A DNA stretch of 64,000 nucleotides from a virus. Below, piece by piece: positions 11,340 to 38,679 of this stretch. How positions within the stretch are numbered: position 1 is the stretch's first letter; each line of letters opens with the position of its first letter. The stretch covers positions 62,001 to 126,000 of IMG/VR virus record IMGVR_UViG_3300025133_000036. One strand, given 5' to 3'. The translations under genes were made by a program, and so were the position numbers. A model generated the notes under the pieces. The model was given only the letters and a program-made list of their open reading frames with translations, searched no databases and was not told the DNA's origin.

Positions 11340-11347
11340 CATAACCA

Positions 11348-14398: not shown

Positions 14399-17300
14399 TG
14401 GCATTAAAGGATTTCAACGCAAGTAAAATTAAAAGTTGGACATACCATGATACGTCTGCGAAAGAGCCACAAACATTTGATGACATCCATTCAGGTACTA
14501 TCGTCACTGGACAAAGAGACAAAATTGAAGAGCAATATATGGAAGGTCTGAAAACAACTCAGGATGTATCCGCCTATGACATACAATCTGATCCTCCATC
14601 AGCCCAAACTTTTCAAGCAGGTACATATACGGTCACCGGTATTCGGGATTTAATTGAGGCGAAATTTTTAGAAGGTAATCCATTAACAAGTAAAAATAAC
14701 GCTACTACATTAGATGACGTAATCGGTTTTAAACCTGATACGGGACAAACATATAACGTTGGTCCCTACACTGTTACAGGTGATAAAACAAAAATAGAAA
14801 CACTATTAGATTCATTTGAAGCGGATCCGTTACAATATGTGGATTCATTGGCTGGATATAGTCAAGTTGTTGATCAAATTGATAGTGCGAACCCACAAAT
14901 CTTTACTATATCAAACAGTGCCGGAGAATATTCAATAACAGGTTTACATGGTTCTATTGTATTTGATGATTTAGATGATTTAAAAACAAAAAGTCTAGTT
15001 ATAAAAACACTTGGTGATAAAATAGAATCTGCAACAATGCGTTCATGGGCTGCACCAGATGTTAATAGTGCACAAAAAGGGTGGAGACAGGTTCCAATTG
15101 GACTTAGAGATTTTGGAACAGGTGAACTTGATTCAACTCCAATTAAACTTGGTGGAGATGCGACATTCCCAGGGTTTACAGTATATCCTAAAACACCGCA
15201 ATGGGCCCAATCTGTAACGGAAAACTATACAGATATTATAACAACAAATAGTTTTTATGGCAGATTCACTGGAAAATTATCTTCGCTCGCACTCGATAAT
15301 CCATCAGGTGGAGATTCCGTATTAGGTAACCCGTTTACGTCTGTTGATACACTATTTGGTTTATCAGCCGGCTTTTATTTAGGCATCCGCGGGATAACGT
15401 TAGGTAATATTTTAGGTAAACCTCAATATACTAAGCATACAACTATTTACGGGTATGATGAAAGTGGAGTTACAGGTGAAGCAGCTTTAGTAGAACCTGA
15501 TGAATGGGATGGTCAAAGTGACTTTGATCGCGATGAAATGCCAAAAATGATGTATCTGTATGATAAGTTCATTCTTGGACCCGATACAGTAGACGACCCA
15601 CATGTGGAAGCTTACCAGTTTAAAGCCGGTCATTTAGGTTTTTCAAAAGACGCATTGCAAGGTGCATCAAATTTCGCAGCTGCTGGTGCAAGTTTCGTTA
15701 TGAACTGGATTCTTAGTTCATTTGATGAAAAATATCCTATAATTCCTACAAGGAATCAAGTTAATATGAAGGGTGCCGGCAAAGATTACTTGTCTCAAAC
15801 TAGCACAAAATATTTTGATTCTTCAAATGATAAAGCTTCAAGTGATACAAGCAAATCCGTTCCATCTTTAGCAACCATTGTATTAAACAGAGATGATTCA
15901 CCGTTTATTTCACAGACTTTTCTTGATGCATCTGGAACTGATCCGTCAAAGCTTGAAGACGCAGACTTAAAAAATAAACCTTTATTAGTAACCTTATATA
16001 AAAAATTAATACTAGATGGCAGTCAAATACTTGGTGATGAATATAAAACATTATTTGATAAATCTGCACATAAAAGCATGTTTCCAAATTCATCGGTATT
16101 ACCACAACATCCTCAAGGTGGAACAGCACAAGGTAAAGCATATACAGATTCTCAAAAATATGTTTCACAAGCCGAAAAACCTAGAACATATCAAGGCGAT
16201 AAAGCAACAATAGCTGGAGGAGATAATCCATTTTTATTTTATTCAAAACACTCCACAACAAATTTACGATATGACGTAGACGGCGATACAGAATTATCAT
16301 CAAGATATGATACAAGTGAATTCGCAAAACATGAGGTTCTTAAAGGTTTTATTGCAACTGGAAGCTTAGACCATACGAAACCTATGAAAAGTAAACTTGT
16401 TGATAAAATTGAAAATGATATCACATCGCCACTTGGCTTTACAGATGATGATTCAGCAGGTAAAATTCCAATCGTTGGACGTAAAAAATTAACAGAAAAG
16501 GGTCATGCATTACCATATGACAAACTTGGAAAAGAAAAAAATAGAAAATATGGTGAAATATTAATGAGCCCAAGTGAATTCGCGGCGGTTGAAGAACTTC
16601 CAACTGAAGTAGCTGGACTAGTTAAATTAAACGAGAATAAACAACTAGATATGACCAGTACAGAACCTAAATTTGCTAGAAATGAAGGAGCTAAAAAAGT
16701 TTATAACATTGGAAAAAATGGTTTTGTTAAAATAGATCCGGCCAGTACACAGACAACCTCTGTATACGATGATGCACTTGGGTTAGTCAAATTAAGTGGT
16801 GATGGTGATAACAAGTATAAAACAGATCACATTGATAAAGTTAATATGGTTGCTTACCGGAATTCTGAGGATGATCATAGCGTTGGAACATATGAAGACT
16901 TAGATTTTGTGCCATTAGTATTTCAAGATGTTTACAATGAAAAGGATATAGTATTTAGGGCTATCCTTGGTGCTATAGAAGATAAACATACCCCAGATTG
17001 GGAAGAACAGAGTTTTATCGGCAGACCAGTAAAGAGTCATGTATATAAAGGAGTCGATAGAGAAATAAGTTTTGACTTTAAAGTTTATCCTAAAACAAAA
17101 CAAGAATTTCCTGTTTTGCTAGAAAAAGTAAATTATCTTTCAGGGTTAGCATATCCAAATTTAGATCAATATTATAGAATGTCTGGACCATTATGTAAAT
17201 TAACACTTGGAGATATCTGTAAACGTCAATTAGGCTTCTTAAGTGATATTAGTGTTACATTTCCTGAAGACAGTCCTTGGGAAATTCAAAAAGGATTAAG

Positions 17301-17505
17301 ATTTACGAAACTGATCAATGTTGCCGTTACTTTCAAATATATTGGCGGATACATCCCAGTTTCAACCGGAAAACACTATGAATTAAATTGGCTTGACGGT
17401 GAGCATTATAGTAAAACTGGTGTAGCATTTGGATCCGACGAAGTTGATAGAAGTAATGATTCAAATATGCAAAAGATATTCGCCTCAGCGACGAAGGTAA
17501 CATAG
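14398..17505 (+). CDS. Large baseplate/tail structural protein with N-terminal repeats
   Basis: A 1035-residue protein. The N-terminus has four degenerate repeats starting near residues 25, 70, 117 and 167, each with QTF (or QTY/QIF), a Gly/Tyr strand and VTG or ITG followed by a helix. The middle has Lys- and Asp-rich linkers. The C-terminal 200 residues (VYNEKDIVFRAILGAIEDK, then SHVYKGVDREISFDFKVYP) look like a tail-tube-like baseplate domain such as those of hub or junction proteins. It sits between the tape measure and a LysM baseplate gene, so it is almost surely part of the baseplate. No exact T4 equivalent is recognised. Confidence 0.65.
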   Translation: MALKDFNASKIKSWTYHDTSAKEPQTFDDIHSGTIVTGQRDKIEEQYMEGLKTTQDVSAYDIQSDPPSAQTFQAGTYTVTGIRDLIEAKFLEGNPLTSKNNATTLDDVIGFKPDTGQTYNVGPYTVTGDKTKIETLLDSFEADPLQYVDSLAGYSQVVDQIDSANPQIFTISNSAGEYSITGLHGSIVFDDLDDLKTKSLVIKTLGDKIESATMRSWAAPDVNSAQKGWRQVPIGLRDFGTGELDSTPIKLGGDATFPGFTVYPKTPQWAQSVTENYTDIITTNSFYGRFTGKLSSLALDNPSGGDSVLGNPFTSVDTLFGLSAGFYLGIRGITLGNILGKPQYTKHTTIYGYDESGVTGEAALVEPDEWDGQSDFDRDEMPKMMYLYDKFILGPDTVDDPHVEAYQFKAGHLGFSKDALQGASNFAAAGASFVMNWILSSFDEKYPIIPTRNQVNMKGAGKDYLSQTSTKYFDSSNDKASSDTSKSVPSLATIVLNRDDSPFISQTFLDASGTDPSKLEDADLKNKPLLVTLYKKLILDGSQILGDEYKTLFDKSAHKSMFPNSSVLPQHPQGGTAQGKAYTDSQKYVSQAEKPRTYQGDKATIAGGDNPFLFYSKHSTTNLRYDVDGDTELSSRYDTSEFAKHEVLKGFIATGSLDHTKPMKSKLVDKIENDITSPLGFTDDDSAGKIPIVGRKKLTEKGHALPYDKLGKEKNRKYGEILMSPSEFAAVEELPTEVAGLVKLNENKQLDMTSTEPKFARNEGAKKVYNIGKNGFVKIDPASTQTTSVYDDALGLVKLSGDGDNKYKTDHIDKVNMVAYRNSEDDHSVGTYEDLDFVPLVFQDVYNEKDIVFRAILGAIEDKHTPDWEEQSFIGRPVKSHVYKGVDREISFDFKVYPKTKQEFPVLLEKVNYLSGLAYPNLDQYYRMSGPLCKLTLGDICKRQLGFLSDISVTFPEDSPWEIQKGLRFTKLINVAVTFKYIGGYIPVSTGKHYELNWLDGEHYSKTGVAFGSDEVDRSNDSNMQKIFASATKVT

Positions 17506-17508
17506 ACA

Positions 17509-17814
17509 ATGTTTAATAGATATAATAATGCAAGAATAAAAAGAGATGAAAAAACCCAATCTAGGTATTTTAAGCCGTCTTTTTACCCGGACATACCTGA
17601 AAAAGATACAGATATTTTTCATACTGTTAGACCTGGTGAACGTTTAGATTTATTAGCACATAAATACTATAAAGATGTCGGACTGTGGTGGATCATAAGT
17701 AGAGCAAATAGATTAGATCCATCTGATATAGGGTTACGAGCTGCAACTCAACTTAGAATACCTACCGATATTGGAGAAGTAATCCGATCTTTTAAATCTA
17801 TAAACATGGAGTAA
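17509..17814 (+). CDS. LysM-type baseplate protein (gp53-like)
   Basis: A 101-residue protein. The core FHTVRPGERLDLLAHKYYKD followed by VGLWWIISRANRL is a LysM-like fold: in contractile tails such a small protein (T4 gp53, and the equivalents in R-type pyocins and Mu-like tails) clamps the baseplate wedge to the hub. The end LRIPTDIGEVIRSF fits the family. It starts four bases after the preceding stop. Confidence 0.8.
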   Translation: MFNRYNNARIKRDEKTQSRYFKPSFYPDIPEKDTDIFHTVRPGERLDLLAHKYYKDVGLWWIISRANRLDPSDIGLRAATQLRIPTDIGEVIRSFKSINME

Positions 17815-17818
17815 TTCA

Positions 17819-20764
17819 TTGGGAATATTCAGAAAAAATATAGATCGCAATATTCAGATCGGATTAAATGCACGAATAAACGCAATGAGTACTTATGGTG
17901 AGACGCCCATCATAAATGATCAATTATCTTCTGTTTCAGATCCAGAGTTACAAGCCGCTGAATTTACATTAAGTAAAGAGGCCCAAATTGCAAAATCACC
18001 ATTCGTACGCTTAATCGCTCCAGGTACACAAAATACTCATATCCTATATGGTATGTTTAATACGACTATTGAATCTTCTGGTGTAACTAAAGCTGAATTT
18101 GGATCTTCTGCGGTAGATGCATTTACTTCTTTACAAGATAATGTTAAAGGCTCTGAACAAGCGTTTTATAATCTAGATGATGCAACAAATTCTCAATCTG
18201 CGGGTTATGAGTTCGGAAGACCAACACCTGGAATAACACAAGTATCTGTTGATTTTATTAAGACAGGAGGAGCCGTAAGGAAAGCCACGATTAATTGGAC
18301 AGTATTTGGACTTAGCGATTTAGAAAAATATCATGAAACTTTTTTGTCTTTAGGCAGGTATGTGATATTAGATTGGGGTTGGGTTAGGAGCGTTAAAGGA
18401 TTAGACAATATTCCTTCATTAGTTAAAACTGAAGGTTCGCGAACACAAGTCGATCCTTCTCTATTTAAAAAGGAAGAAAAAGAGATTGACGGTAAAAAAG
18501 TTTCTAATGGCCCTTCAATGTGGCAAAAAATGTTTACTGATTATTATGGCGATTGGTCCGGACTAGTTGGAGTTATATCAAAATTCGATTGGGAACAAAG
18601 AGAAGATGGCGGCTTCAATTGTACTACAGAAGTAATGGCCCAAGGAACTAGCATATTTCAACAAGATTTACCTAAAGTAAAAGATAAAGCACTACGTCAA
18701 GAAGTTTCGATGGACGTAAAAAGTTTTGACGATTTTATGCTGGATTTTGCAAACGATTTATCCGGAGCCGTTAGAGATCATGAAGGAAATCCAATGCGAC
18801 TTGATCCATCTAAAGTACAAGAGACTATGTCCGGTCCCAAATTAAATATTGTAGAACGTATTGCAAGTCTTGACGTTGAAATAATGGATAAATATTTCGG
18901 ACACATTATTGCGGAAAGACTTGATCTATTATCTAGAGTTCAGTCTGGAGAATTAACTGCGGGTACAGAAGAGTATGAAGGAGACAGTACTTATGAATTA
19001 CCTGGAGCATTTCTTTCTAACGATAAAAATATTGCAGCAATAATACACCCAACTAATACTACCATTCCTGGAGGTTATGTTGAACTGTTCAGTAGTGAAA
19101 ACGAAGATTCGACTAAACGCGCAGCAGATTTTTCATCTAATATATGGGTCAAATGGGGTTGGTTTGAAGATAATGTCGTATCGTATTATTGTAGAACTAG
19201 ATCAAAAGATGGTCCACGTGACATTGAATTTAGATCTATAATGCCAGAAAAATTAAACGGTCCAACACACGCAATACCAATATACAATTCACCAGAACTT
19301 TGGACATATGATCCATCATTGTTCATACTCCCAGGCCAAACTAATGAAGAGTGGTTTCAGCAAACTATACCAAAAGATGAAAACGGAAAAAACGGACCGC
19401 CCATAGCGTCTTTATACGAAAAATTAGCAAAAAAAATTAATTCAAATTGTGAACCATTTGGTAATGATGCAAAAGATGTCGGATATCTTAGAAATATGTA
19501 TGTAAACTTAAAACTCATCCAAAATAATTTCACCGCCGGCGCTCAAAGTATTAATAGTGCAATGTTAAATGTTTGTAGAGCATTAAATTCCGGAATAAAA
19601 ATTTGGGATTGGGAAACATATTCACAAGACAATTTAACAAATACTTTAGTTACTCAATTCATATATGATAAAAATGACCCACCACGAATAACGAAACCGG
19701 CAACGGATTCTAGTAGCGATCCACTTCCATCATTTGATGACGACCCTAAAAAAGCTTACATTTTTGAAAATTACGGTTTTAATTCGATAATAAAAGACGT
19801 TACTGTTAAAACAGAAATATCGAGTAAAATGTCCGCAATGATGGGAATAAATAGAGGGAATCCGGATAGTGAAACTACTGACGCAATAAAAACAATAATT
19901 AGTAAACCGCCTGGAAGTAAAAGTGATGCAGAAGTAGAAGCTGAAGCTTATGCAAACTTTTTTTCATCATTTAACCAAACAGATAAAGATACGTTAGCTT
20001 CTGGCGTTATTTCTGAAGACGATTCTACTTATGGAAATTCTTCCGTTACCACTTCTTCTCCGGGAAATTTAAATATATCTGGATTAGATTCGGCAACTAC
20101 AAAGTGGAATCACAATATAAATCCATTATTGATACGCGCTAATCCAACGTCAAAAGCCAACTTTGCAGAAATGGCAGAAAAAAAGATGCATGAACAATTA
20201 GCTTCACAAGAATCAGAAATAACAACTGCCAGTGGAGATAAAGTAAAAGTAAGTGGCAATGCATTACCTACAGTAAAAGGTTCAAGTCAAGATCAAACCA
20301 TTTTACTCGAATACAGAAAACCCTATGGACTTGATGGAAAAATGAGAGCTCATTTTATACGAACATTACAATGGTACCATGAAGATAGTCCAATGACAAT
20401 GGTTAAAGCTTCTTCATCAGATATATTAATGCCGTTAAGCGTTGATATGACATTGGAGGGCTGCGGTGGAATTTATCCAGGAAATGTATTTAGACTTGCG
20501 TATTTACCGGAAAGATACGGTCAAGTACCCACACCAGGGCAACTTCCTAAAACAGGTTTTGTTATAATGGGTGTAAACCATGAAATAACTGATGGCGGTT
20601 GGGAGACAAAAATAGATGCTCAAATGTATATGATAAAAAATAATGATCCAAAATCTGGAGAATCATCAGGTGAAATAACAAAGCGCGAATTCTATGCAGA
20701 GAATAAAAACAAAATTGATGCTGCATTTAAAAAGAATTTCCAAAAGATGATTGATTTAGAATAA
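17819..20764 (+). CDS. Large baseplate structural protein
   Basis: A 981-residue protein starting at a TTG, chosen because GGAG lies 7 bases before it and no in-frame ATG is near. Segments such as GGAVRKATINWTVFGLSDLE, YVILDWGWVRSVKG and VKWGWFEDNVVSYYCRTR recur in long baseplate proteins of marine T4-like phages, with alternating strands and an acidic Ser-rich linker near residues 700-760. The C-terminal third (GCGGIYPGNVFRLAYLP, then GFVIMGVNHEI) resembles hub-type beta domains. It probably forms part of the baseplate hub or wedge. The exact equivalent in T4 is not clear. Confidence 0.65.
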   Translation: MGIFRKNIDRNIQIGLNARINAMSTYGETPIINDQLSSVSDPELQAAEFTLSKEAQIAKSPFVRLIAPGTQNTHILYGMFNTTIESSGVTKAEFGSSAVDAFTSLQDNVKGSEQAFYNLDDATNSQSAGYEFGRPTPGITQVSVDFIKTGGAVRKATINWTVFGLSDLEKYHETFLSLGRYVILDWGWVRSVKGLDNIPSLVKTEGSRTQVDPSLFKKEEKEIDGKKVSNGPSMWQKMFTDYYGDWSGLVGVISKFDWEQREDGGFNCTTEVMAQGTSIFQQDLPKVKDKALRQEVSMDVKSFDDFMLDFANDLSGAVRDHEGNPMRLDPSKVQETMSGPKLNIVERIASLDVEIMDKYFGHIIAERLDLLSRVQSGELTAGTEEYEGDSTYELPGAFLSNDKNIAAIIHPTNTTIPGGYVELFSSENEDSTKRAADFSSNIWVKWGWFEDNVVSYYCRTRSKDGPRDIEFRSIMPEKLNGPTHAIPIYNSPELWTYDPSLFILPGQTNEEWFQQTIPKDENGKNGPPIASLYEKLAKKINSNCEPFGNDAKDVGYLRNMYVNLKLIQNNFTAGAQSINSAMLNVCRALNSGIKIWDWETYSQDNLTNTLVTQFIYDKNDPPRITKPATDSSSDPLPSFDDDPKKAYIFENYGFNSIIKDVTVKTEISSKMSAMMGINRGNPDSETTDAIKTIISKPPGSKSDAEVEAEAYANFFSSFNQTDKDTLASGVISEDDSTYGNSSVTTSSPGNLNISGLDSATTKWNHNINPLLIRANPTSKANFAEMAEKKMHEQLASQESEITTASGDKVKVSGNALPTVKGSSQDQTILLEYRKPYGLDGKMRAHFIRTLQWYHEDSPMTMVKASSSDILMPLSVDMTLEGCGGIYPGNVFRLAYLPERYGQVPTPGQLPKTGFVIMGVNHEITDGGWETKIDAQMYMIKNNDPKSGESSGEITKREFYAENKNKIDAAFKKNFQKMIDLE

Positions 20765-21426
20765 TGGCAATAGAACGAACAGACGGGCCCTTTTTAACGG
20801 GTGATCATGAATTTCACTATATAGATAGTGATTTATGGGTATTACCCGAAACATCATATTTTGTCCATTATTCAACTAATAAAATAGTAACATATGAATT
20901 AGAACAAACAAAAGAACAGATTGTCGCTATGCGCAAAAAACCTTTTGAAGTATATCAAAGGATAACTAATCGATTAAGAGATATTTACCCAAAGAAAATT
21001 TATCCAACGGTGAAAAAATTACCGTTTGGACAGAAATTTATATCAAGGGTTTTTACACAAAGCAAGCTAATCCCTGGCGCGGAAATATATGAAACTATCT
21101 CTAAAACAAAGACAGCTAGTTATCGATTTGTAAAATTGGAATGGCAAATATCAGGGGCTGCAAGTCAAGCTGAATTACATAATTTTAATGAATTACAAAA
21201 AGCGGAAGCAATAATACCTGGTATATCTGAAGTAATTCCGGTTCTTCAATTGCATAAGACAAAAATCAGACGCGAAAAAGATCCTGCAAATTTGATTAAA
21301 AAGAACCATCTTTACGCTAATTCAGCTACTGATGAGGTTTTACAAAATTTAACATCCCCTACAAAAGAACAATCTAGAACGTTTAAAAAGAAACGCAAGA
21401 GAAGACGAAAATCTAAAAAGAAATAA
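20764..21426 (+). CDS. Unknown protein with highly basic tail, baseplate operon
   Basis: A 220-residue protein, coupled to the preceding baseplate gene by a one-base overlap. The first 190 residues are an ordinary mix (EVYQRITNRLRDIYPKK, AEIYETISKTKTASYRFVKL), while the last 20 residues are almost all Lys and Arg. Such a tail could bind DNA or the acidic interior of a virion. I do not recognise the family. As the last gene of the structural operon it may be a minor tail protein. Confidence 0.6.
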   Translation: MAIERTDGPFLTGDHEFHYIDSDLWVLPETSYFVHYSTNKIVTYELEQTKEQIVAMRKKPFEVYQRITNRLRDIYPKKIYPTVKKLPFGQKFISRVFTQSKLIPGAEIYETISKTKTASYRFVKLEWQISGAASQAELHNFNELQKAEAIIPGISEVIPVLQLHKTKIRREKDPANLIKKNHLYANSATDEVLQNLTSPTKEQSRTFKKKRKRRRKSKKK

Positions 21427-21440
21427 AATAAGTCAGATTT

Positions 21441-21466
21441 TTCTCGAAAAAATTCATATATATTAA
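21441..21466 (+). promoter_or_regulatory. Candidate promoter for PolA-like gene (leaderless transcript)
   Basis: TTCTCG is followed after 17 bases by TAAAAA within CATATATATTAAAA. The ATG of the next gene is only 2-3 bases beyond, and there is no Shine-Dalgarno sequence. If this is a promoter, the mRNA would begin at or near the start codon. The same geometry is seen at 49826-49855. Confidence 0.4.
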
Positions 21467-21468
21467 AA

Positions 21469-22764
21469 ATGGTTATAGAATCTCAATCAATGTATGATGA
21501 CATGTTACGACATATTGCTGGCAAAGAGGTGTATGCAGTTGCGATAAGAGATGATTTTAGAACACATCCGGCCGAATCTATTCCTATTATTTTTTCAATA
21601 TCTTGTGAAACTAAAATTTATGATATAGTATTTGACCATAGTGAATCAATGTCAAATAATTTAGATTTTACGCTATTATCATGTGCAAAACGTTTTTATG
21701 TTGAAGACATTAAACAGTTTTACCATCTCACAAAATTTAAAAACATATATGATGTCAAATTAAATTGCTGGATAAACGATAAACAATTTAAAGAAATAGA
21801 ATTACCAAAAGTATTCTCTCATATTTATTCTAATGCACCGGTAAATAGAGAGTCAAATAAAATAGTTCCACTATTTAAGGTTTTAGAGTATTCGCGTAAC
21901 AAGCTTGCAAACGTTTTATTTCACTGTAATTCATTAGGCGTTTCTAAGCCGTTTTTAAAATATAACGATGCATTAATTCAATTGGCGATCGTGGAATCAA
22001 ACGGTTTAAGAATTACTCCAGGATCCTATCATACTACTTTTAAAAACGGATATGCATTTAGTAATTACAATATACATACTGTAACCGGAAGACCTTCAAA
22101 TACATTTAATAATATTAATTTTGGTGCACTTAATAAATCTGATGGTACTAGGACCGCATTTATTTCTCGACATAAAAACGGCATGCTGATTGAAATGGAC
22201 TATGACGCATACCATTTAAGACTTTTAGCAGACATATTAGATTGGGATTTTCCCAAGCATAAGTCAGTACATCAATATTTTGCAGATGAAGTTTATCATT
22301 GTGAATATAAAGAAGCAAAGAAATTATCATTTCAAATGTTATACGGTCAAATACAAACAACAGCTGAAAGAAACCCCTTTTTTTACGGTGTAGATAGGCT
22401 GTCTCAAGTACTGCTCGATTCTTTTACATCTGATAAATGTCTAAAATCTCATATTTATGGAAAAGAATTTTGTTTAAAGAATGTTGAAGATCTTAATAGG
22501 AGCAAACTATTAAATTATTTTATTCAATCTTTTGAAACTGAAAGAAACTTAAATGTGATAAAATCTGTCAACAAATTTCTTAAGACTAAGAGAACTAAAA
22601 TGACATTATATACTTATGATAGTTTTTTGTTTGATTTTGATATTAATGAGGGACTAAATACATTGAAAGAATTAAAAGCACTATTAGAATCCGGCGGCTA
22701 CCCTATCAAAGCAAAAGCCGGTCAAACGTATCATGATATGAATGACATTACCGGGAGGTTATAA
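21469..22764 (+). CDS. Divergent stand-alone family-A DNA polymerase (PolA-like palm/fingers)
   Basis: A 431-residue protein. Residues 200-400 hold the family-A polymerase motifs in order: TGRPSN (206-211, as in TGRLSS), NINF and RTAF ahead of motif A MDYDAYHLRLLA (243-254, catalytic D244), the O-helix motif KKLSFQMLYG (284-293, with K284 and F288 in the places of K758 and F762 of E. coli Pol I), and motif C YTYDSFLFDF (381-390, catalytic D384). The usual Glu of motif A (DYSQIELR) is His here, and the Arg of the O-helix is lost. The N-terminal 170 residues show no clear exonuclease motif. It is encoded after the baseplate genes, far from the phage family-B polymerase. Confidence 0.8.
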   Translation: MVIESQSMYDDMLRHIAGKEVYAVAIRDDFRTHPAESIPIIFSISCETKIYDIVFDHSESMSNNLDFTLLSCAKRFYVEDIKQFYHLTKFKNIYDVKLNCWINDKQFKEIELPKVFSHIYSNAPVNRESNKIVPLFKVLEYSRNKLANVLFHCNSLGVSKPFLKYNDALIQLAIVESNGLRITPGSYHTTFKNGYAFSNYNIHTVTGRPSNTFNNINFGALNKSDGTRTAFISRHKNGMLIEMDYDAYHLRLLADILDWDFPKHKSVHQYFADEVYHCEYKEAKKLSFQMLYGQIQTTAERNPFFYGVDRLSQVLLDSFTSDKCLKSHIYGKEFCLKNVEDLNRSKLLNYFIQSFETERNLNVIKSVNKFLKTKRTKMTLYTYDSFLFDFDINEGLNTLKELKALLESGGYPIKAKAGQTYHDMNDITGRL

Positions 22765-24971
22765 TGATACCAAAAAAATATAAAACTATGATAGCTGATG
22801 CACTAACTAGAGCATCTTATCGTACAAAAAATGGAATGATAGATCTATCAAACGATTTAGATTTATTCATAGTTGTTGAAGAATTACGTAAAGAATTTTC
22901 GGAAGATATAATTCAAAAAGCGTTATTTATTGAAATTTCTCAAAATGATGATGATTATACAAATATTGGCGGTTCTGGTTATGTATTGACAAAAGCTCTC
23001 CCAGATGATTGGGACCAAGAAAAAGATGGTATCCCTTCTGATGCTCAACGGTTCACTAAAGGTAAAGATGGAAAATATAGTTCTTCAGGAAAGGAGAAGA
23101 AGGTGAAGGCTACATCACAAGCTTTAAGCCCACAGGATTTTCCAGAAATGGGAGACGAGGGTAAACCTGACGTTGATCCAAAACAAGTTGAAAAAGATAA
23201 GAAAAAAGCCGAAAAATTAGAAAGAGAAACAGAAGCTAAAAAAGAAGTTGTTAAAACTGAAACGAGTGGAACACTTGACCAGGTAGCATGGGAAAACGAT
23301 ACAGATCAAGAAGAGTTTCAAACTGCATTTGATAAACTCGTCAATGGTGAAGAGCTCACTGAAGAAGAACTAGCAATGATAAATAAATATGCAGCCGTAA
23401 AAGACAGCGATAGTGAAGCTGCCCTTTATTTGCCAAATCAAACGCCAGGTGATTTTAGACAAGGAGCAAGGGTTAAAGTAGAATTGGGAGGCAGTGCGGC
23501 AGCAAAAAGAGTATTGGCTCAAATGGTTGAAAATGGAATCCAAACTGCAGATCCTGTTACAACAGCTGAATCAGTACCAGCGAAATTGAAAACAAAAGAT
23601 GCTACATTAGGTAAAATATCGGGTGGAAAAACAAAATCACATACAATAACAACTGAAAAAGATAAAGACGGTAGGGTTATTTCTGTAACAGTTGCAGGTA
23701 AGGTTATGCGAAGGCAGCTTGAGCCTGATGCTGATGTACTCATTAAAGAAGTTGTTGAAATGATTGATCAAGGGAAATCTCCCGAAGACGCTGCACGTGA
23801 AGCGCAAAAAATCCTTGCTGGAATAAAACGATACAATAATTTAATTGATAAGTACGCATCTGCAGATCCTGCAGTAATGGAAACAGTTGAACTCGTCCCA
23901 GGCGCGGATGTATCTACACCAGAAGGAAGAAATAGAGTTGCTTCAGAAGGTCCAGGCATAGTAGCGGATGCATTAGAAAAAATGATAGATGACCCTACTG
24001 AAGCTGAACGGAAAGTACTTGATAGGATCAGAAAATTAGGTGATATTGAAGACGCAGAAGAATATGAACGTGAAGCCATGGCTATTTTAAAACGTATGGG
24101 TGAAATTTCATCTATTAAAAAAGGAGCTCCTGATGTTGCTGAAGCATTAGTATTATGCGCAATGAATAAAAAGGGTATACCAACTGTAGCGCCAGCAGGA
24201 GAAACTTTTAAGGTTGCAGATTTAATACAATTAGCTGAAGAAGATCTAGATCCTACAGATCCGGAATATTTACAAAAATTAGCAGCTGGTGGACCAGTTG
24301 TAGTATTTATGACAACTGCTGGTGGATTAAGTGTTAAAAAAGATGGCGGCGCTGCATCAGGGTTTGAAGCAAAATTAGGAATGACAACGTTTAAGCTTCC
24401 TGAAACAAAAAACATGCTAACAGCAATTTTAGACCACCACAATCATGGCATTGCAACTACAAAGAAGGGTGAAGAGTTATCTCCAACAAGAATAGCGACA
24501 GCAAAAAAGAAATTAGATGAAGTTGAAAAATGGGCCAGAGAAAATGATTTAGTTGATGATAACGATTTAAAATTTAAAGATGGTAGATCACCGGAAGAAT
24601 GGGCAACTGATAGCGTTGCGGATTGGCAAGCAAAAGGTACATTACCACCAGATTGTCCAACAAAAAACGCTAAAGGTGAGTGCCTATCGGACGATAATAA
24701 GAAGAATTTGATCGACGGTCTTCACCAATACGCTCGGGGCGGGTTACTAGCTCAAGCAATTCACAATAACGATTTAGATTTCCAAGATTATCATAACGCA
24801 AACGCAAATACTAGAACTGGTGAAATTGAACTTAGTGATGGAATTGAGTGTTTAAATGATATGCAATTTTCTGCTAATCCAGGCTTTAAAATGAAAAAAG
24901 ATAAAAACGGAAATTTTATAATGCGACCTAACGCTGTTTATGCCGGTAATTTACACAAGCGCTGCAGATGA
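22764..24971 (+). CDS. Large unknown protein between PolA-like and Nudix genes
   Basis: A 735-residue protein that I do not recognise. The first 80 residues form a small helical domain (KTMIADALTRASYRTKNGMI). A low-complexity Lys/Glu linker (about 110-170) follows, then a long acidic helical region, and a C-terminal domain with HHNHGIA (near 555), two or three Cys (PPDCP, GECLS, GIECL), and QYARGGLLAQAIHNNDLDF. The start is supported by GGGAGG 7 bases upstream. It could be a virion internal protein or an enzyme; the sequence does not decide. It overlaps both neighbours by a few bases. Confidence 0.6.
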   Translation: MIPKKYKTMIADALTRASYRTKNGMIDLSNDLDLFIVVEELRKEFSEDIIQKALFIEISQNDDDYTNIGGSGYVLTKALPDDWDQEKDGIPSDAQRFTKGKDGKYSSSGKEKKVKATSQALSPQDFPEMGDEGKPDVDPKQVEKDKKKAEKLERETEAKKEVVKTETSGTLDQVAWENDTDQEEFQTAFDKLVNGEELTEEELAMINKYAAVKDSDSEAALYLPNQTPGDFRQGARVKVELGGSAAAKRVLAQMVENGIQTADPVTTAESVPAKLKTKDATLGKISGGKTKSHTITTEKDKDGRVISVTVAGKVMRRQLEPDADVLIKEVVEMIDQGKSPEDAAREAQKILAGIKRYNNLIDKYASADPAVMETVELVPGADVSTPEGRNRVASEGPGIVADALEKMIDDPTEAERKVLDRIRKLGDIEDAEEYEREAMAILKRMGEISSIKKGAPDVAEALVLCAMNKKGIPTVAPAGETFKVADLIQLAEEDLDPTDPEYLQKLAAGGPVVVFMTTAGGLSVKKDGGAASGFEAKLGMTTFKLPETKNMLTAILDHHNHGIATTKKGEELSPTRIATAKKKLDEVEKWARENDLVDDNDLKFKDGRSPEEWATDSVADWQAKGTLPPDCPTKNAKGECLSDDNKKNLIDGLHQYARGGLLAQAIHNNDLDFQDYHNANANTRTGEIELSDGIECLNDMQFSANPGFKMKKDKNGNFIMRPNAVYAGNLHKRCR

Positions 24972-25369
24972 TTAAACTAAAAGGCATATTAATGGAAGAT
25001 AAGATTGTGGATACCGCCGGTATAATAGTACGTTCAGATGCCGGCATTATTTTATGTAAAGAAAGAAATAGTGATTATCAATGGGGAATTCCAAAGGGTA
25101 AAGTTGACCCAGGTGAAACACCGATACATGCGGCATGCCGTGAGACGCTTGAAGAAGCTTCAATATTAGTTAAAGTAAATGGAAGCCATTTAAACACACC
25201 GGTCGAGGAAGTTAAAATTGCAAAAAATTCTAGAGGAGGTAAGTTTTTTATCTATGAATGCACTTTAAAACTATCAATAATACCAAATAAAAGTTTAGAA
25301 CACGATGAAGTAAAATATTTTAGAAACCTTCCAGAAAATATTGACACACGATTAGAAGGATTATTATAA
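24968..25369 (+). CDS. Nudix hydrolase
   Basis: A 133-residue protein with a complete Nudix box: GKVDPGE, seven residues, then RETLEEAS, matching G-x5-E-x7-RE-U-x-EE-x with Ala in place of the final Gly. The preceding WGIPKGKVDPGE is typical. Nudix enzymes cleave nucleoside diphosphates linked to other groups (nucleotide sugars, dinucleotides, damaged NTPs, capped RNA); the substrate cannot be told. ATGA overlap with the upstream gene supports the start; a later ATG at 24992 is possible. Confidence 0.9.
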   Translation: MIKLKGILMEDKIVDTAGIIVRSDAGIILCKERNSDYQWGIPKGKVDPGETPIHAACRETLEEASILVKVNGSHLNTPVEEVKIAKNSRGGKFFIYECTLKLSIIPNKSLEHDEVKYFRNLPENIDTRLEGLL

Positions 25370-25758
25370 TGAAAACACAATTACTATGCACTTTTTGCGT
25401 AAAACACGAATTTGACACAACTGTTGACCTAATATCTTTAGCTGCAAACGTTGTATTTAATAAAATATATGCGTTTGAAAATCTAGACGATCCTCAGCAA
25501 ATAATTTGTACTTATAATGTAGAAAAATTGGATGACTTTGTTCAAAACAATAAAACAATGGCGATCCACCGGAAAAAAGAAACTAATACTTTATATACTA
25601 TAAATGCTTTAAATGAAGCAATTCGTGAGAATAATGATGGAGTATTAGATAAGTCTTTTTCTTTAGACTGGTCAATGTATCAAAACAGTTTACTTCTTAC
25701 GAACGATAAAGGTCTTAACGTTGTAAAAACAAAATTATATAAAATTGTAAACGTCTAG
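25369..25758 (+). CDS. Conserved-looking phage protein of unknown function
   Basis: A 129-residue protein beginning MKTQLLCTFCVKHEFDTTVD, containing IYAFENLDDPQQIICTYNVE and TMAIHRKKETNTLYTINALN. Proteins of this style are frequent in marine T4-like phages, often as a conserved hypothetical, but I know no function. It overlaps the Nudix stop and ends 8 bases before the selenoprotein ATG, so the two are probably cotranscribed. Confidence 0.7.
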   Translation: MKTQLLCTFCVKHEFDTTVDLISLAANVVFNKIYAFENLDDPQQIICTYNVEKLDDFVQNNKTMAIHRKKETNTLYTINALNEAIRENNDGVLDKSFSLDWSMYQNSLLLTNDKGLNVVKTKLYKIVNV

Positions 25759-25766
25759 GACCTCCC

Positions 25767-26000
25767 ATGGAAATTTCAATCGAATATTGTATGCAATGAA
25801 ATTACGAGCCACGAGCCTTCAGGTTGAGGGACGAACTTGGAATTAAATATCCGAATATTGATGATTTTGATATGATACAATCAAAGGGCGGAGTATTCGA
25901 AATTAAACAAATAAACTCATCTAGCGATGAAATATTGCTATTTAGTAAAATTGCCACAGGAAGATTTCCACATCAAGATGAAATAAAAATAAAGTTATAA
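25767..26000 (+). CDS. Rdx/SelW-like selenoprotein with in-frame UGA (Sec) at CxxU
   Basis: A 77-codon frame, ATG 25767 to TAA 25998-26000, is broken by a single TGA at codon 11 (25797-25799). The TGA is exactly the second redox position of the Rdx family motif: EYCMQ-U-NYEPRAFRL (C8xxU11). The rest matches the family: RDELGIKYPNIDDF, then GGVFEIKQ (41-48) and GRFPHQDEIK (65-74), ending at the usual length for bacterial SelW-like proteins. AGGA lies 6 bases before the ATG. A bacterial SECIS-like hairpin follows the TGA. Rdx proteins have a thioredoxin-like fold with a probable thiol/selenol redox role. UGA is a normal stop elsewhere here (for example the gene ending at 33759). Decoding would need host SelA, SelB and tRNA-Sec, none of which I found in the window. 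Confidence 0.85.
25816..25830 (+). promoter_or_regulatory. Bacterial SECIS-like hairpin
   Basis: CCTTC (25816-25820) pairs with GAGGG (25826-25830) as five base pairs including one G-U, closing the loop AGGTT. The loop begins AGGU as in the E. coli fdhF SECIS (loop AGGUCU), where the loop G and U contact SelB. The loop G at 25822 is 23 bases after the UGA, inside the spacing accepted for bacterial SECIS elements (about 16-37). The hairpin lies within the coding sequence, as bacterial SECIS elements do. Confidence 0.7.
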
Positions 26001-26015
26001 AAAACCTGCTTTTCG

Positions 26016-26089: not shown

Positions 26090-26485
26090 TACAGAGGAGT
26101 AATTAACTCTGTATGGGATTGGCCGAACAATGAGTGGATGAAGAAGCTCATAAGGCAATCTACCTTCAGATCTATAGTGGATCGGTATTCGGGCAAAATG
26201 CACAATATCTTACGACAGTATTGAGGGCTAATGTACTTCTAGAAAAACTTAAAGAACAGCGATTCTTTGACCTTGTTGTGGGTAAGGGTAATACCGAAAT
26301 CCCACCAAGCTGGCTGAATAATCCAAACTTAGAGGGATAAGGCTCCTAACAGAGGTTGTGCTCGCTCAAATGTAAGGTAACACTTATGAGGAGAATCGAC
26401 TTAACCGTCGGGGAAAGGGAACAAGGTAGAAAAATCTAAGCTAGAAGTTGTAGTGTAATCGCAAATCCTACATCCTACCAAATAA
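26090..26485 (+). ncRNA. Candidate structured non-coding RNA (unknown class)
   Basis: Between the selenoprotein and the gp32-like gene lie about 560 bases without a normal gene. From about 26090 to 26485 the sequence is clearly richer in G and C than its neighbours and full of short helices: ACAGAG/CTCTGT (26091-26112), GTGGG/CCCAC around a GGT/ACC hairpin (26277-26304), TAAG/CTTA (near 26371-26386), CGAC/GTCG (near 26397-26411). Bases 26110-26121 can also pair with 26462-26472 to close the whole element (10 pairs, one bulge, one mismatch). It is bracketed by candidate promoters. No tmRNA, RNase P, SRP or group I/II intron signatures were found. An alternative reading is a short coding frame (26113-26340) with an in-frame TGA at codon 7. 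Confidence 0.35.
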
Positions 26486-26560: not shown

Positions 26561-27316
26561 ATGGATATTACCGCCATTAAGGCTCGCCTTAATCAACTTC
26601 AACAAGTTAATACAAGAACCTCTTCACTGTGGAAACCTTCACCAGGAAAATCTCAAGTGCGTATAGTACCTTATAAGCACAATCCGGATTCGCCATTTAT
26701 TGAATTATATTTCCATTATGATATCGGTGAAAGATCATACTTGTCACCTGCATCATTTGGCCGTCCAGATCCAATTGAAGAATTTGCAGTTAAGTTGAAA
26801 ACATCTGGAAATAAAGACGATTACAAATTAGGAAGAAAAATCGAGGCTAAAATGCGTACTTTCGCACCTGTTATAGTCCGCGGTGAAGAATCCGAAGGTG
26901 TAAAGTTTTGGGGTTTTGGTAAAACAGTTTATCAAGAGCTTCTTTCTATCATTGCAGATCCAGATTATGGTGATATTACTGATCCAGTAAGTGGTCGCGA
27001 TATTGTAGTTGAGTTTAAAACTAAAGAAGAAACTGGTAAGTCATTTCCAATGACGGCTGTTCGTGCAAAACCAAATCAAACTCCGGTAACGGAAGATCCT
27101 GAGGTTATGAAGACAATCAAAGACACTCAAAAACAAATTACTGAGATTTACCAAGAGCAATCTTATGATGATTTAAAAGAAGTCCTAAGTGGATTTCTAA
27201 ATCAAGAATCAGAGCTCAGTGATAGTGACTTAAATACTGATGCAGTAAAGACTCCAGTTAAAGCTGGTAAAACTGAAGATGTATCGAGTGCTTTTGACGA
27301 TCTATTCAACAACTAG
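26561..27316 (+). CDS. Single-stranded DNA-binding protein (gp32-like)
   Basis: A 251-residue protein with the gp32 plan. The N-terminal basic segment is short (MDITAIKARLNQLQQVN), followed by the OB-fold core with SLWKPSPGKSQVRIVPYKHN, FIELYFHYDIG, and FWGFGKTVYQELLSIIADPDY, which is very typical of phage gp32 proteins. The acidic C-terminal tail SSAFDDLFNN is the partner-binding tail. The protein has no Cys at all, so the zinc site of T4 gp32 is absent. It coats ssDNA during replication and recombination and works with UvsX and the helicase encoded next. Confidence 0.9.
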   Translation: MDITAIKARLNQLQQVNTRTSSLWKPSPGKSQVRIVPYKHNPDSPFIELYFHYDIGERSYLSPASFGRPDPIEEFAVKLKTSGNKDDYKLGRKIEAKMRTFAPVIVRGEESEGVKFWGFGKTVYQELLSIIADPDYGDITDPVSGRDIVVEFKTKEETGKSFPMTAVRAKPNQTPVTEDPEVMKTIKDTQKQITEIYQEQSYDDLKEVLSGFLNQESELSDSDLNTDAVKTPVKAGKTEDVSSAFDDLFNN

Positions 27317-30867: not shown

Positions 30868-32841
30868 ATGAATGAAAAATTTACGTTGTCACTTGGGTTT
30901 ATAGATAAGTACAAAAGAAAAAAACCACCATTCGGATTTAATGGATTAGGAGAGTTAGTTTATATGCGGACCTATTCTCGCATAAAAGATGACGGTAAAA
31001 ATGAAATGTGGTGGGAAACTATTCAACGAGTTGTAGAAGGCACATATTCTATGCAAAAAAGTTGGATTGACCAACATCAACTTGGTTGGAATCCTTGGCA
31101 AGCACAAGCGTCTGCTCAAGAAATGTATGACAGAATGTTTAACATGAAGTTTTTACCTCCTGGTCGGGGGTTATGGGCGATGGGAACCGCGATAACAGAA
31201 GAAAAGAATCTTTACGCAGCGCTTAATAATTGTGCATTTGTATCTACAAAAACACTAAAAGAAGATCACGCAAAACCGTTTTGTTTTTTGATGGATGCGT
31301 CAATGTTAGGTGTAGGGGTCGGTTTTGATACAAAAGGTGCCGGCGAGATAATGATAAAAGGTATCGCGACTAACAGAGATGTACAACAGTATGAAATACC
31401 AGATACTCGTGAGGGGTGGGTAGATTCTGTTAGAATTCTATTAGAAAGTTATTTCCATGGAACTGCTCCAATTGAATTTGATTATACAAAAATAAGACCT
31501 GCAGGAATTCCAATTAAAGGTTTTGGAGGACAGTCAAGTGGACCGGATCCGTTAAAAGAAGTTCATGAAAAAATCCGGATAACTTTAGAAACCAATACTG
31601 GAGATCCAATTACAATAACTACAATCGTCAACATAATGAACCTTATTGGCAAGTGTGTAGTAGCAGGAAACGTAAGAAGAACTGCTGAGATCGTGTTTGG
31701 AGATCCAGATTCTGAAGAATATCTAGATCTTAAAAATTATAAAGTTAATCCTGAGAGAGAAGAATTTGGATGGACGTCAAATAATTCTATATTTGCAGAA
31801 CTTGGTATGGATTATACCGAATCAGCAAAAAGAATTATAGATAATGGTGAACCAGGATTCGCATGGTTAGAAAACATGAGAAAATATTCTCGCATGAAAA
31901 ATGGTGGAGACAATAAAGATCATCGTGCTATGGGTGGTAATCCTTGTTTAGAGCAAACATTAGAGTCTTATGAATTATGTTGTCTTGTTGAAACTTTTCC
32001 AAATAATCATGAGTCTTTGGATGATTATGCTAGAACATTAAAATACGCATATTTGTATGCAAAAACCGTCACTCTTGGTAAAACACAGTGGTCTGAAACA
32101 AATCGTGTAATGTTAAGAAATCGAAGAATAGGATGTTCAGTGAGTGGCGTTGCTCAATTTATCACCAATCACGGTTTAGGAGAATTAAAGACTTGGTTAA
32201 ATTCTGGATATGACGTTATACAAGAATGGGACAAAATGTATTCTGATTGGTTTGCAGTACCACGTTCAATCAAAACTACATCTGTTAAACCTAGCGGTAC
32301 AGTTTCACTCCTCGCGGGAGCAACACCTGGATTACATTACCCAGAAAGTCGATTCTATATACGAAGGATCCGATTAGGAATCAATTCAGAATTAATTATG
32401 CCACTAGAAAAAGCCGGATATAAAATAGAACCCGCATTCGGTTCAGAATCTACTACAGTTGTTGTTGAAGTTCCAGTCGATGCCGGTCAAGGTATCAGAA
32501 CAGTTAATGACTTATCTATTTGGGAACAATTCAGTTTAGCTGCATTTATGCAAAGACATTGGGCCGATAATCAGGTGAGCTGCACAGTCACATTTGATCC
32601 TAAAACAGAAGGCGTAGAATTACCTCAAGCATTAACTTACTTTCAATATCATTTAAAAGGAATCAGTTGTTTACCGAAACATGATTCTGGTGCTTATCGT
32701 CAAATGCCGTATGAAGAAATAGATAAAAAAACTTATAAAGGTATGCTTTTAAAATTAAAAAAATTAAGCTTTAGAAAAGTCAAAGGTAATGAGGCTATTG
32801 TTGAAAAATTTTGCGATGGAGATACGTGTGAACTTGAATAA
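30868..32841 (+). CDS. Ribonucleoside-triphosphate reductase, class II (adenosylcobalamin-dependent)
   Basis: A 657-residue monomeric RTPR-type enzyme that reduces ribonucleotides to deoxyribonucleotides. Seen residues match the family: redox Cys in NNCAFVS (C122), radical Cys and neighbouring Glu in GGNPCLEQ (C360, E362), the second redox Cys in YELCCLVE (C371), and a C-terminal shuttle Cys pair in KFCDGDTCELE. LPPGRGLWAMG near residue 96 is typical. Class II enzymes need coenzyme B12 but no oxygen and no small subunit, so one gene suffices. T4 itself uses class I and III enzymes. AAGGAGAG lies before the ATG. Confidence 0.92.
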   Translation: MNEKFTLSLGFIDKYKRKKPPFGFNGLGELVYMRTYSRIKDDGKNEMWWETIQRVVEGTYSMQKSWIDQHQLGWNPWQAQASAQEMYDRMFNMKFLPPGRGLWAMGTAITEEKNLYAALNNCAFVSTKTLKEDHAKPFCFLMDASMLGVGVGFDTKGAGEIMIKGIATNRDVQQYEIPDTREGWVDSVRILLESYFHGTAPIEFDYTKIRPAGIPIKGFGGQSSGPDPLKEVHEKIRITLETNTGDPITITTIVNIMNLIGKCVVAGNVRRTAEIVFGDPDSEEYLDLKNYKVNPEREEFGWTSNNSIFAELGMDYTESAKRIIDNGEPGFAWLENMRKYSRMKNGGDNKDHRAMGGNPCLEQTLESYELCCLVETFPNNHESLDDYARTLKYAYLYAKTVTLGKTQWSETNRVMLRNRRIGCSVSGVAQFITNHGLGELKTWLNSGYDVIQEWDKMYSDWFAVPRSIKTTSVKPSGTVSLLAGATPGLHYPESRFYIRRIRLGINSELIMPLEKAGYKIEPAFGSESTTVVVEVPVDAGQGIRTVNDLSIWEQFSLAAFMQRHWADNQVSCTVTFDPKTEGVELPQALTYFQYHLKGISCLPKHDSGAYRQMPYEEIDKKTYKGMLLKLKKLSFRKVKGNEAIVEKFCDGDTCELE

Positions 32842-32889: not shown

Positions 32890-33759
32890 ATGCAAGGTTT
32901 TAAAAATCTTAATGAAATGTATTGGTATCTTTTAGCGGATCTTGATAGTGAAGGGCTAGAAGTTAGCAGTAGAGGTTCAAATCAAAAAGAAAAAATATAT
33001 GTTCAATGTGGATTTAATGATCCAACTGATTTACAAGTACTATATCCAAGTAGAAAATTTAATCAGGAATATGCAATGACTGAATGGTTGTGGTATTGTT
33101 CACTTGATTCAAACGTAAAAAACATAGGAAAATTGGCTCAACTATGGAAACGCATATCAGATGACAATAATCACGTTGAATCTAATTATGGTCCTTATTT
33201 CTTTAATCCCATTAATCAACCACATTTTCAAGGTAGTCAATGGGAATGGGTTAAAGAAGAACTAATTAATGATCCAGATAGTAGAAGAGCCTCGATTGTT
33301 ATTAATCAACCATATCATAAAGGAAAAAATCCATTAGACGTTCCATGTACACAATATGTTCAATTTTTCATTCGCCAAAATAAATTACACTTAGGCGTTT
33401 CAATGAGATCAAATGATATTGTTTATGGTTTAACCAATGATGCGTTTACATTCAGTTTATTTCAGCAGATGATGTATAATGAGTTAAAACTTAAAATGCC
33501 AGATTTAGAGCTTGGAACGTATAATCATTTTGCTGGATCGATGCATGTGTATGAAATGCATTATGAAATGGCAAGCAAAATCTTATCAGAATCCGAATAT
33601 ATCAATGAGAAAACTGATAGGAAATTTAAGCTTAAAGAAGATATCACATGGAATGTTATGATGAAAGATATAAATCCAAAATCAAAACTTATTGCGGATT
33701 CTCCTAAAGACGAAATTTTAGAGTATGTTAAAGAAAAAGAAAAGGAATTATTTGAATGA
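32890..33759 (+). CDS. Thymidylate synthase-family enzyme, probably dCMP-type (hydroxymethylase-like)
   Basis: A 289-residue protein of the ThyA fold. The catalytic Cys is C153 in DVPCTQYVQFFIR; the dNMP-phosphate Arg and Ser are in MRSNDIVYG (R173, S174). E. coli ThyA has N177 eleven residues after R166, and this Asn selects dUMP; here the matching residue is Asp184 (in GLTND). In T4 dCMP hydroxymethylase that position is also Asp and selects dCMP. I therefore infer cytidylate chemistry, though plain thymidylate synthase remains possible as the alignment is by eye. It overlaps the dNMP kinase-like gene by four bases. Confidence 0.75.
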   Translation: MQGFKNLNEMYWYLLADLDSEGLEVSSRGSNQKEKIYVQCGFNDPTDLQVLYPSRKFNQEYAMTEWLWYCSLDSNVKNIGKLAQLWKRISDDNNHVESNYGPYFFNPINQPHFQGSQWEWVKEELINDPDSRRASIVINQPYHKGKNPLDVPCTQYVQFFIRQNKLHLGVSMRSNDIVYGLTNDAFTFSLFQQMMYNELKLKMPDLELGTYNHFAGSMHVYEMHYEMASKILSESEYINEKTDRKFKLKEDITWNVMMKDINPKSKLIADSPKDEILEYVKEKEKELFE

Positions 33760-34250: not shown

Positions 34251-35494
34251 ACCGAATTAATTCCATATCATCTGCAAGAAATGTAGAAGATAAAGCACAT
34301 CTTGCTCGACATGTCAAAAACATAACTGTTATAATTACAGGTTCTCGTGGGGGTTCTTCGCTATTCAAAGAGGCACTTACCAGGTCTCCAGAATTATTGT
34401 TCACTTCCGGAGAAGAATCACCATTTTTAGCTCTTACGCAAAATGAATTCCCGTTTGTTCCTTCGGATTTTCTTCAATCCAACAACATACAGTATAAAGA
34501 TGAATTAATAAGTAATATATTAGATGATCTTGGTTTAAGAATTGAAGATGGTGATTTATCAATGAATGCGTTTATTGAGCAAATGAGAAAACGCTTACTC
34601 CTTCAACTTCCAATTGAAGATTTTGATTTTAGTAAAGAACATTTAGAATCCATATTTTTTAAAATTTTTGAAGACCATAGATTTTGGGCTGGAAATTATG
34701 ACGAATTAATCAGGAAATTTTTAATTGAATTCACAGCCGGCAAAAATAAGCCATGGTTATACTATTATGATACTTTTTTAAACGGACCCGAAGAACATTA
34801 TCCACTTGATTGGAAAGTTGAAGATACGCCATTTGTTGTACCAAAATTAAAACAGCCATTAACAAAAAGCGATCTCGAGAAACATTCTTTAGTTTTTAAA
34901 ACTCCTCAAAACGTTTATAGAGCCGGCATGTTTGAAACCTTATTTCCACGTGCCAAAGTAAAATATCTTCACATGACAAGGGGTTTTGCTCAATCTGTCA
35001 ACGGATTAATGGATGGATGGTTACATGATAAAGGGTTTTTCGCTAAAAATCTTGCTATGGATGGACATACGTTAAATATAAAAGGATATTCCGACATAAA
35101 AGAATACGGCGATAAGTGGTGGAAATTTGATTTACCTCCTAATTGGGAAAATTTTAAAAATAATGCGTTATATGAAGTATGTGCTAATCAATGGGCTTCC
35201 GCACATGAACACGCACTAAACATTAAAATACTCAATAGCCCAGAGAACTATATGCAATTAAAATTTGAAGACTTTTTAGATTATCCACAGAAAATGATGA
35301 ATGAGGTAACTGAATTTATAAACATAAAACCAATCAGTGTTGCAAATTTACCATTAGTTATGATAACAAACAAGCCTAGAAAATATAGATGGCATAAAAG
35401 AAAAAAGTTAATACGAGAATTAGCAGATCAACCAAGAATTAAATCATTAATGAAAGCATTAAAATATAGCATGGAGGAAAATACATGGATATAG
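34229..35494 (+). CDS. Sulfotransferase-family protein
   Basis: A 421-residue protein with the PAPS-binding motifs of sulfotransferases: a P-loop-like 5'-phosphosulfate loop TGSRGGSSLFKEAL near residue 33 and the 3'-phosphate motif YLHMTRGFAQSVNGLMDGW in the middle, followed by a conserved-looking C-terminal half (LKFEDFLDYPQKMMNEV). It should transfer sulfate from PAPS to a glycan, protein or small molecule. It overlaps both neighbours and so belongs to the operon with the pentein-like and TS-like genes. GAGG precedes the ATG. Confidence 0.75.
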   Translation: MQISDYLDRINSISSARNVEDKAHLARHVKNITVIITGSRGGSSLFKEALTRSPELLFTSGEESPFLALTQNEFPFVPSDFLQSNNIQYKDELISNILDDLGLRIEDGDLSMNAFIEQMRKRLLLQLPIEDFDFSKEHLESIFFKIFEDHRFWAGNYDELIRKFLIEFTAGKNKPWLYYYDTFLNGPEEHYPLDWKVEDTPFVVPKLKQPLTKSDLEKHSLVFKTPQNVYRAGMFETLFPRAKVKYLHMTRGFAQSVNGLMDGWLHDKGFFAKNLAMDGHTLNIKGYSDIKEYGDKWWKFDLPPNWENFKNNALYEVCANQWASAHEHALNIKILNSPENYMQLKFEDFLDYPQKMMNEVTEFINIKPISVANLPLVMITNKPRKYRWHKRKKLIRELADQPRIKSLMKALKYSMEENTWI

Positions 35495-38440: not shown

Positions 38441-38455
38441 TTGACCTATTTCAAT

Positions 38456-38528
38456 GGGGCTGTAGCTCAGTTGGGAGAGCGCCGCACTTGCACTGCGGAG
38501 GTCGCAGGTTCGATCCCTGTCAGCTCCA
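38456..38528 (+). tRNA. tRNA-Ala(TGC)
   Basis: The 73-base sequence folds as a full cloverleaf. The acceptor stem GGGGCTG pairs with CAGCTCC and contains the G3-U70 wobble that identifies alanine tRNAs. The D loop has AGTTGGGA, the anticodon stem CCGCA/TGCGG encloses CTTGCAC with anticodon TGC, and the T arm is CGCAGGTTCGATCCCTGTC-like. The discriminator is A, and the 3' CCA is not encoded. Confidence 0.93.
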
Positions 38529-38533
38529 CAAAT

Positions 38534-38604: not shown

Positions 38605-38679
38605 CAAAATAAAACAAAAAAGTACTTTGGTTTTACGTAAAAAAGTATTAGGTTATACCAACAATAATAAAGGATTTAT

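Follow-up and report, generated by a model that had tools for sequence, protein, structure and literature searches.

A SelW-like gene with a predicted UGA-encoded selenocysteine in tailed phages

The gene and its phage setting

The stretch of DNA analysed here (the window) comprises 64,000 nucleotides of an IMG/VR virus record, IMGVR_UViG_3300025133_000036, with a total length of 132,165 bases. The record encodes a tail sheath, a gp32-like protein, RecA, a 5'-3' exonuclease, a DnaB-like helicase and a class II ribonucleotide reductase (RNR), as well as thymidylate synthase, DNA polymerase B and PhoH, and T4-type baseplate and tail-tube matches have been found among its smaller ORFs. This gene content is that of a myovirus-type tailed phage. 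Among the matches listed for its RecA in the phage collection, that of Microcystis phage Mel-JY01 comes first (51.5% identity), and at least 520 RecA relatives are present in IMG/VR.

The gene under study is located among these phage genes, 3' of the tail sheath and 5' of gp32, recA, the exonuclease, the helicase and the class II RNR (Table 1). It is preceded by the NUDIX gene and a small ORF (together 24968-25758), and its AGGA site overlaps the stop of this ORF (25369-25758), which lies directly 5' of it. The gap of ∼560 nt towards gp32 is partly filled by a manA-like RNA and partly conserved in five relatives.

Table 1. Features of the SelW locus and its neighbours (window positions)
Feature	Position	Strand	Basis
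NUDIX hydrolase gene, same gene row, upstream of SelW	24968..25369	+	PF00293, 51.3 bits
AGGA Shine-Dalgarno-like site	25757..25760	+	read from sequence, 6 nt 5' of ATG
SelW/Rdx-family selenoprotein gene (predicted Sec at residue 11, CxxU)	25767..26000	+	77 codons, ATG 25767, TAA 25998-26000; Pfam match
Predicted Sec codon UGA, codon 11	25797..25799	+	column UGA in 12/12 phage genes compared
Predicted bacterial-type SECIS hairpin	stem 25816-25821 / 25825-25830, loop GGU 25822-25824	+	covariation, bSECIS model
manA-like structured RNA	26277..26481	+	RF01745, 40.5 bits, E 4.9e-9, gathering score 55.2 not reached
gp32-like single-strand DNA-binding protein	26561..27316	+	PF08804, 50.1 bits
Phage RecA, marker of phage group	27374..28480	+	PF00154, 186.8 bits
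Class II (B12-dependent) ribonucleotide reductase	30868..32841	+	PF17975 146.2 bits, PF21995 53.1 bits

Further observations concern other parts of the record. Two polymerase-like genes are present, one a weak match to DNA polymerase A (window positions 21469-22764, 29.6 bits, cut-off 34.3) and the other clearly a polymerase B (38680-41130), as are two thymidylate-synthase-like genes (32890-33759 and 36386-37144; 73.5 and 29.2 bits), a glutamine-synthetase-like gene (42014-43096) and a gene of the arginine-deiminase family (35485-36396, PF02274). In pieces of the record, ARAGORN has found tRNA-Ala and tRNA-Cys only, and both are covered by a TTG-started, probably spurious ORF of 84 amino acids on the plus strand (38441-38695). 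A single ORF of 5310 codons lies 5' of the window (G000:C1, ∼10075-26006).

Family membership, the UGA codon and its conservation

The initial annotation had described a 77-codon frame complete except for one TGA, placed at the selenocysteine (Sec) position of the Rdx (SelW) motif, with both flanks in register. This description has been borne out. The frame is interrupted by the TGA at codon 11 only and translates into MEISIEYCMQ-U-NYEPRAF...KIKL, and the proposed search with the Pfam Rdx/SelW profile PF10262 matches residues 2-74 of the 77-residue protein, thus spanning the U of C8-M-Q-U11, at 62.5 bits (E 4.2e-17, C for U; curated cut-off 22.6 bits). A six-frame search of the whole record with the same profile has yielded 54.7 bits, with one TGA within the match. 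The C8 and U11 columns are invariant in 10 phage sequences and also in 30 phage and bacterial sequences. UGA is an ordinary stop in other genes, as had been claimed: 18 of the record's 123 ORFs, a greedily chosen set in which some minus-strand ORFs are doubtful, end in TGA, and UGA is consequently not generally reassigned. A rough gap scan for UGA read-through genes, covering the window and the pieces L003, L004, L005 and L007 but not L006, has given six candidates including SelW, the other five being located in the window (two) and in L007 (three).

The AlphaFold2 model of the phage protein (mean pLDDT 95.3) adopts a predicted SelW-type fold, so that C8 and U11 should form a redox centre. Searched against known structures, it has matched 21 PDB chains at E ≤ 0.001, all from six bacterial entries (2OKA, 2OBK, 2FA8, 3DEX, 2OJL and 2P0G), with TM-scores of 0.73-0.83 normalised by the query; 2FA8, 2P0G and 2OBK are titled as SelW-related or Se-binding, and we take the remaining three for members of the same family. 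Mouse SelW (2NPB) is a more distant match (E 0.017, TM-score 0.56). Family, motif and predicted fold suggest a role as thiol/selenol oxidoreductase.

Relatives have been sought in IMG/VR viral contigs with the degenerate pattern E-Y-C-x-x-UGA-x-Y-x-P-R-A, in which UGA is part of the query by design. In all 18 matches, a SelW frame runs without interruption before and after the UGA, which is more than chance; they fall under 17 metagenome ids and represent 11 distinct proteins, the window's own included, and the identity of the latter to the other nine proteins in a ten-row alignment is 43-60%. A protein-only search has returned a single contig, which does not differ from the window over 10 kb, and one of the 18 loci lies on a contig of this kind. 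L002/L017 have been rejected as independent support, L002 being identical to the window across its 10,231 bases. The Cys-codon version of the pattern has retrieved no SelW from the IMG/VR viral contigs; its only match (L143) has been rejected as a SelW gene. Two patterns drawn from the SelW alignment without UGA in the query, one with Cys at this place and one from the stretch downstream, have given 15 loci, 15/15 with UGA and every contig already among the 18.

A search independent of the motif has been based on the RecA neighbour. Among the best 80 of at least 520 RecA loci, SelW occurs in eight, all with UGA, of which five were known and three (L178, L181 and L182) are new, represent one protein type and are not covered by the first motif. 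When the same 80 loci were searched with a permissive profile, no additional SelW scored better than E 2.7. Restricted to those of the 80 with at least 2.5 kb upstream, SelW is present in 7/43 and absent in 36/43, so that the gene seems to have been gained or lost often in this phage group. Taken over all phage genes compared, TGA occupies the motif column in 12 of 12, 11 of which derive from the UGA pattern and one (L178) does not. As to the check that the initial annotation had proposed on relatives, the diverged phage genes thus all carry UGA, with neither a Cys form nor a random stop among them. Two SelW groups (L009, 1343-1402, and L015, minus strand) have an apparent N-terminal extension of 13-15 residues (ASTTxNIxVT...), with TTG/GTG starts and no ATG at the usual start position. 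No relative has been found in PHROGs or by searching the phage collection in six frames; the absence of the family from PHROGs and other phage annotation may result from gene callers that stop at UGA.

Selection is seen to persist past the UGA, as far as sequence comparison can tell. Downstream of this codon, dN/dS amounts to 0.11-0.42 in 28 of the 29 pairs with finite dS, the ratios being rough since dS is mostly >1 and unreliable. The exception is the near-identical pair L022-L025, with 0.74 on four changes. These values refer to 38 listed pairs of 66, nine of them with saturated dS, and the listed set lacks the 28 most diverged pairs.

Eleven of the 19 SelW records contain the RecA marker (100% identity in the window's record and the identical contig, 63-82% in nine others). 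In some records without RecA, phage genes adjoin SelW, such as a baseplate wedge (L013) or thymidylate synthase (L022). Of two neighbours tested in L011, one has weak PHROG matches only and one has none, and the one neighbour tested in L012 has no PHROG match; the viral status of these two records rests on their IMG/VR label.

A covarying hairpin and the decoding machinery

Downstream of the UGA, the phage genes share a hairpin that is predicted to be a covarying SECIS element of bacterial type. Counting the U of UGA as 1, its stem pairs positions 20-25 with 29-34 around a loop at 26-28 (GUN, or GGU, in the set), so that the stem starts 16 nt and the loop 22 nt past the UGA. In the part of a recent review considered here, bacterial SECIS elements are described by a loop of 3-9 nt, a stem of 4-16 bp, a G in the first two loop positions and a distance of 16-37 nt from the UGA (PMC13188914). 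The phage hairpin falls within these ranges with its 3-nt GGU loop, 6 bp and 22 nt.

Across 11 phage genes, the stem is paired in 63 of 66 cells (95.5%). When synonymous codons are resampled by the codon usage of this phage, the mean is 37.4 (sd 3.1, maximum 48) and 0 of 2000 samples reach 63. The hairpin had been picked by eye on these sequences before this null was run; when stems of 5 or 6 bp with loops of 3-8 nt are tried in every placement, this helix comes out best in the phage set, and slid versions are 18-58% paired. Pairing extends to 637 of 690 cells in 115 bacterial UGA genes, as compared with 42 of 102 cells in 17 Cys homologues, where five of the six pairs are formed by none; these are the alphaproteobacterial sequences without a stop among the matches listed and belong to another branch (WLLRA type), which makes them an imperfectly matched control. 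The covariation score is 0.370 versus 0.202 in shuffled alignments, with 0 of 500 as high, and three of the six pairs have changed on both sides (9/500 shuffles as high). The measure of further pair types shows no increase (4 versus 4.2). For these counts, eight duplicate phage rows and two bacterial rows (L032, masked, and L119, cut off) have been dropped from 135, and L178 has been added.

None of the 19 phage SelW records, which may be fragments, contains SelA, SelB or tRNA-Sec over cut-off, which makes a Sec-decoding host necessary. Six sub-threshold RF01852 matches in four of the records (best 38.6 bits) have been rejected as tRNA-Sec, as they coincide with tRNA-Tyr, -Cys, -Ala, -Gly and -Glu genes identified by ARAGORN. 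The same UGA-SelW motif is present in at least 117 bacterial genome stretches, and 18 of 20 bacteria examined with UGA-SelW have tRNA-Sec over cut-off. In three bacteria examined for selA and selB, both genes are over cut-off in a SAR324 (G019) and a Marinimicrobia genome (G022); the third, G020, the bin with the best-scoring SelW, has tRNA-Sec and neither selA nor selB over cut-off, perhaps owing to incompleteness of the bin.

SelW-family relatives are found in 145/245 Marinimicrobia and 41/52 SAR324-phylum genomes, in both cases mostly with one in-frame TGA among the matches listed, and in 46/385 Alphaproteobacteria genomes, 28 of them with TGA. The best scores among the matches listed are 103.4 bits (MarineAlpha3), 101.6 (Marinimicrobia) and 96.3 (SAR324 phylum). 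Two trees, which rest on few columns and on bacterial sampling limited by the motif, place the phage genes together: 12 phage rows lie on one side of a branch in the larger (125 rows, support 86/74) and 11 in the smaller (72 rows, 97/88). In the smaller tree, for which 37 bacterial rows of the first set were picked by hand and 24 new ones used, two of them repeat genomes, the phage clade adjoins five Alphaproteobacteria (91/84). In the larger tree, drawn with a midpoint root, the clade is flanked by 16 Alphaproteobacteria on one side and by the remaining 97 rows on the other, and a branch of 86/84 separates these 97 from phages plus Alphaproteobacteria. The profile and the larger tree have been built without L032, L119, L038 and L137 (masked, cut or frame-disturbed). 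In either tree, the nearest bacterial branch may be that of the Alphaproteobacteria, which hints at an alphaproteobacterial source without naming a host.

Reading of the UGA and biological meaning

The internal UGA of the phage gene almost certainly encodes selenocysteine, to judge from homology, its conservation, the selection that follows it and the covarying hairpin. This supports the selenoprotein proposed in the initial annotation, given a PF10262 match across the U, a UGA kept in diverged relatives and a SECIS hairpin of bacterial type. A rival reading takes the UGA for a nonsense mutation that has disabled a Cys-type Rdx gene of host origin. A recent pseudogene would likewise have one in-frame stop and be open elsewhere, and the patchy distribution of SelW among related phages would fit such decay. 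The UGA in 12/12 phage genes, together with selection past it in diverged phages, is however decisive against decay, and the conserved, covarying hairpin and the lack of a Cys relative in the viral contigs searched add to a case that leaves it a next to negligible probability. Insertion of a standard residue such as tryptophan at the UGA, through recoding or ordinary near-cognate read-through, is also very improbable. Some phages do reassign stop codons, but UGA terminates 18 of 123 ORFs in this record, falls exactly at the Sec/Cys position of CxxU/CxxC and is accompanied by a hairpin that the 17 Cys homologues tested lack, and the two tRNAs found in pieces of the record are those for Ala and Cys.

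The UGA might finally serve as a regulatory switch that senses host selenium, giving a short peptide or no protein where selenium or Sec is lacking. The phage records are without Sec machinery, yet no phage Cys form has been found, even though Cys would release the phages from the need for this machinery. We have observed nothing positive for a sensor, and since the same UGA gene occurs in many bacteria, Sec chemistry is a sufficient reason for its retention, which leaves the switch a slim chance.

A phage selenoprotein of the SelW-like Rdx branch, with Sec inserted at codon 11 by host SelB, Sec-tRNA and the hairpin, is very probably what the locus specifies. Upon infection, host ribosomes would translate the SelW mRNA, the hairpin would be bound by host SelB with Sec-tRNA, and selenocysteine would enter at codon 11. 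The predicted product of 77 residues would combine the C8-M-Q-U11 redox centre with a SelW-type fold and, as suggested by its family, most likely act as a small thiol/selenol oxidoreductase during infection; the actual insertion of Sec, the host and the enzymatic role are what we infer from the above. As a guess, the protein may maintain reduced thiols, either for nucleotide synthesis or in defence against oxidants. A contribution to nucleotide synthesis is suggested only by the position of the gene and by the search for glutaredoxin as a possible partner, which has given no match in this record (G000) and one match below cut-off in G002. The positional argument is weakened by the records of L008 and L020, in which SelW lies tens of kilobases from recA. 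That the tailed-phage clade is partly selenium-dependent, with a UGA SelW lineage of its own that supports DNA/nucleotide synthesis and ties productive infection to Sec-decoding hosts and to selenium supply, is a speculative extension which we regard as rather unlikely.

The protein family itself is known, and it is the phage-borne SelW branch that seems to be new. Marine SelW-like selenoproteins have been described in the Sargasso Sea and GOS selenoproteomes (PMC1088965, PMC2398784), which in the portions consulted are alike in CxxU, UGA-encoded Sec, a bacterial SECIS and the kind of protein; unlike those, the gene reported here resides in the genomes of tailed phages, and the phage copies fall together in trees that also include bacterial ones. 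The words phage and virus do not occur in these portions, nor in that of the 2026 review (PMC13188914). The Cys proteins of the Rdx (PF10262) or SelT-SelW-SelH type share the fold (TM-score 0.73-0.83), with CxxC aligned at the place of CxxU in 2FA8, 3DEX and 2OJL, but have Cys for Sec, and the hairpin is absent from the 17 genomic homologues tested; the solved Rdx structures are 24-31% identical to the phage protein in the structural matches. A link of phages to selenocysteine decoding is also provided by the tRNA-Sec genes of Basilisk-like phages (PMC6145125) and wastewater huge phages (PMC10747093), where the excerpts considered report a tRNA and name no selenoprotein, whereas here a selenoprotein gene with SECIS comes without tRNA-Sec. 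A search of open-licence papers on selenoproteins, SelW or SECIS with phage or virus has given no recognisable phage selenoprotein. Among eukaryotic viruses, poxviruses encode glutathione peroxidase selenoproteins, which likewise are virus-encoded redox proteins relying on host Sec machinery, but belong to another family and use a eukaryotic SECIS in the 3' UTR.

With the phage SelW, bacterial viruses would join the carriers of selenoproteins and would provide a testable example of a phage gene that is fully expressible only in a Sec-decoding host. For uncultured phages, the gene would thereby serve as a clue to host range, and, as a conjecture, some of the metagenomic SelW-like selenoprotein reads credited to bacteria may be viral.
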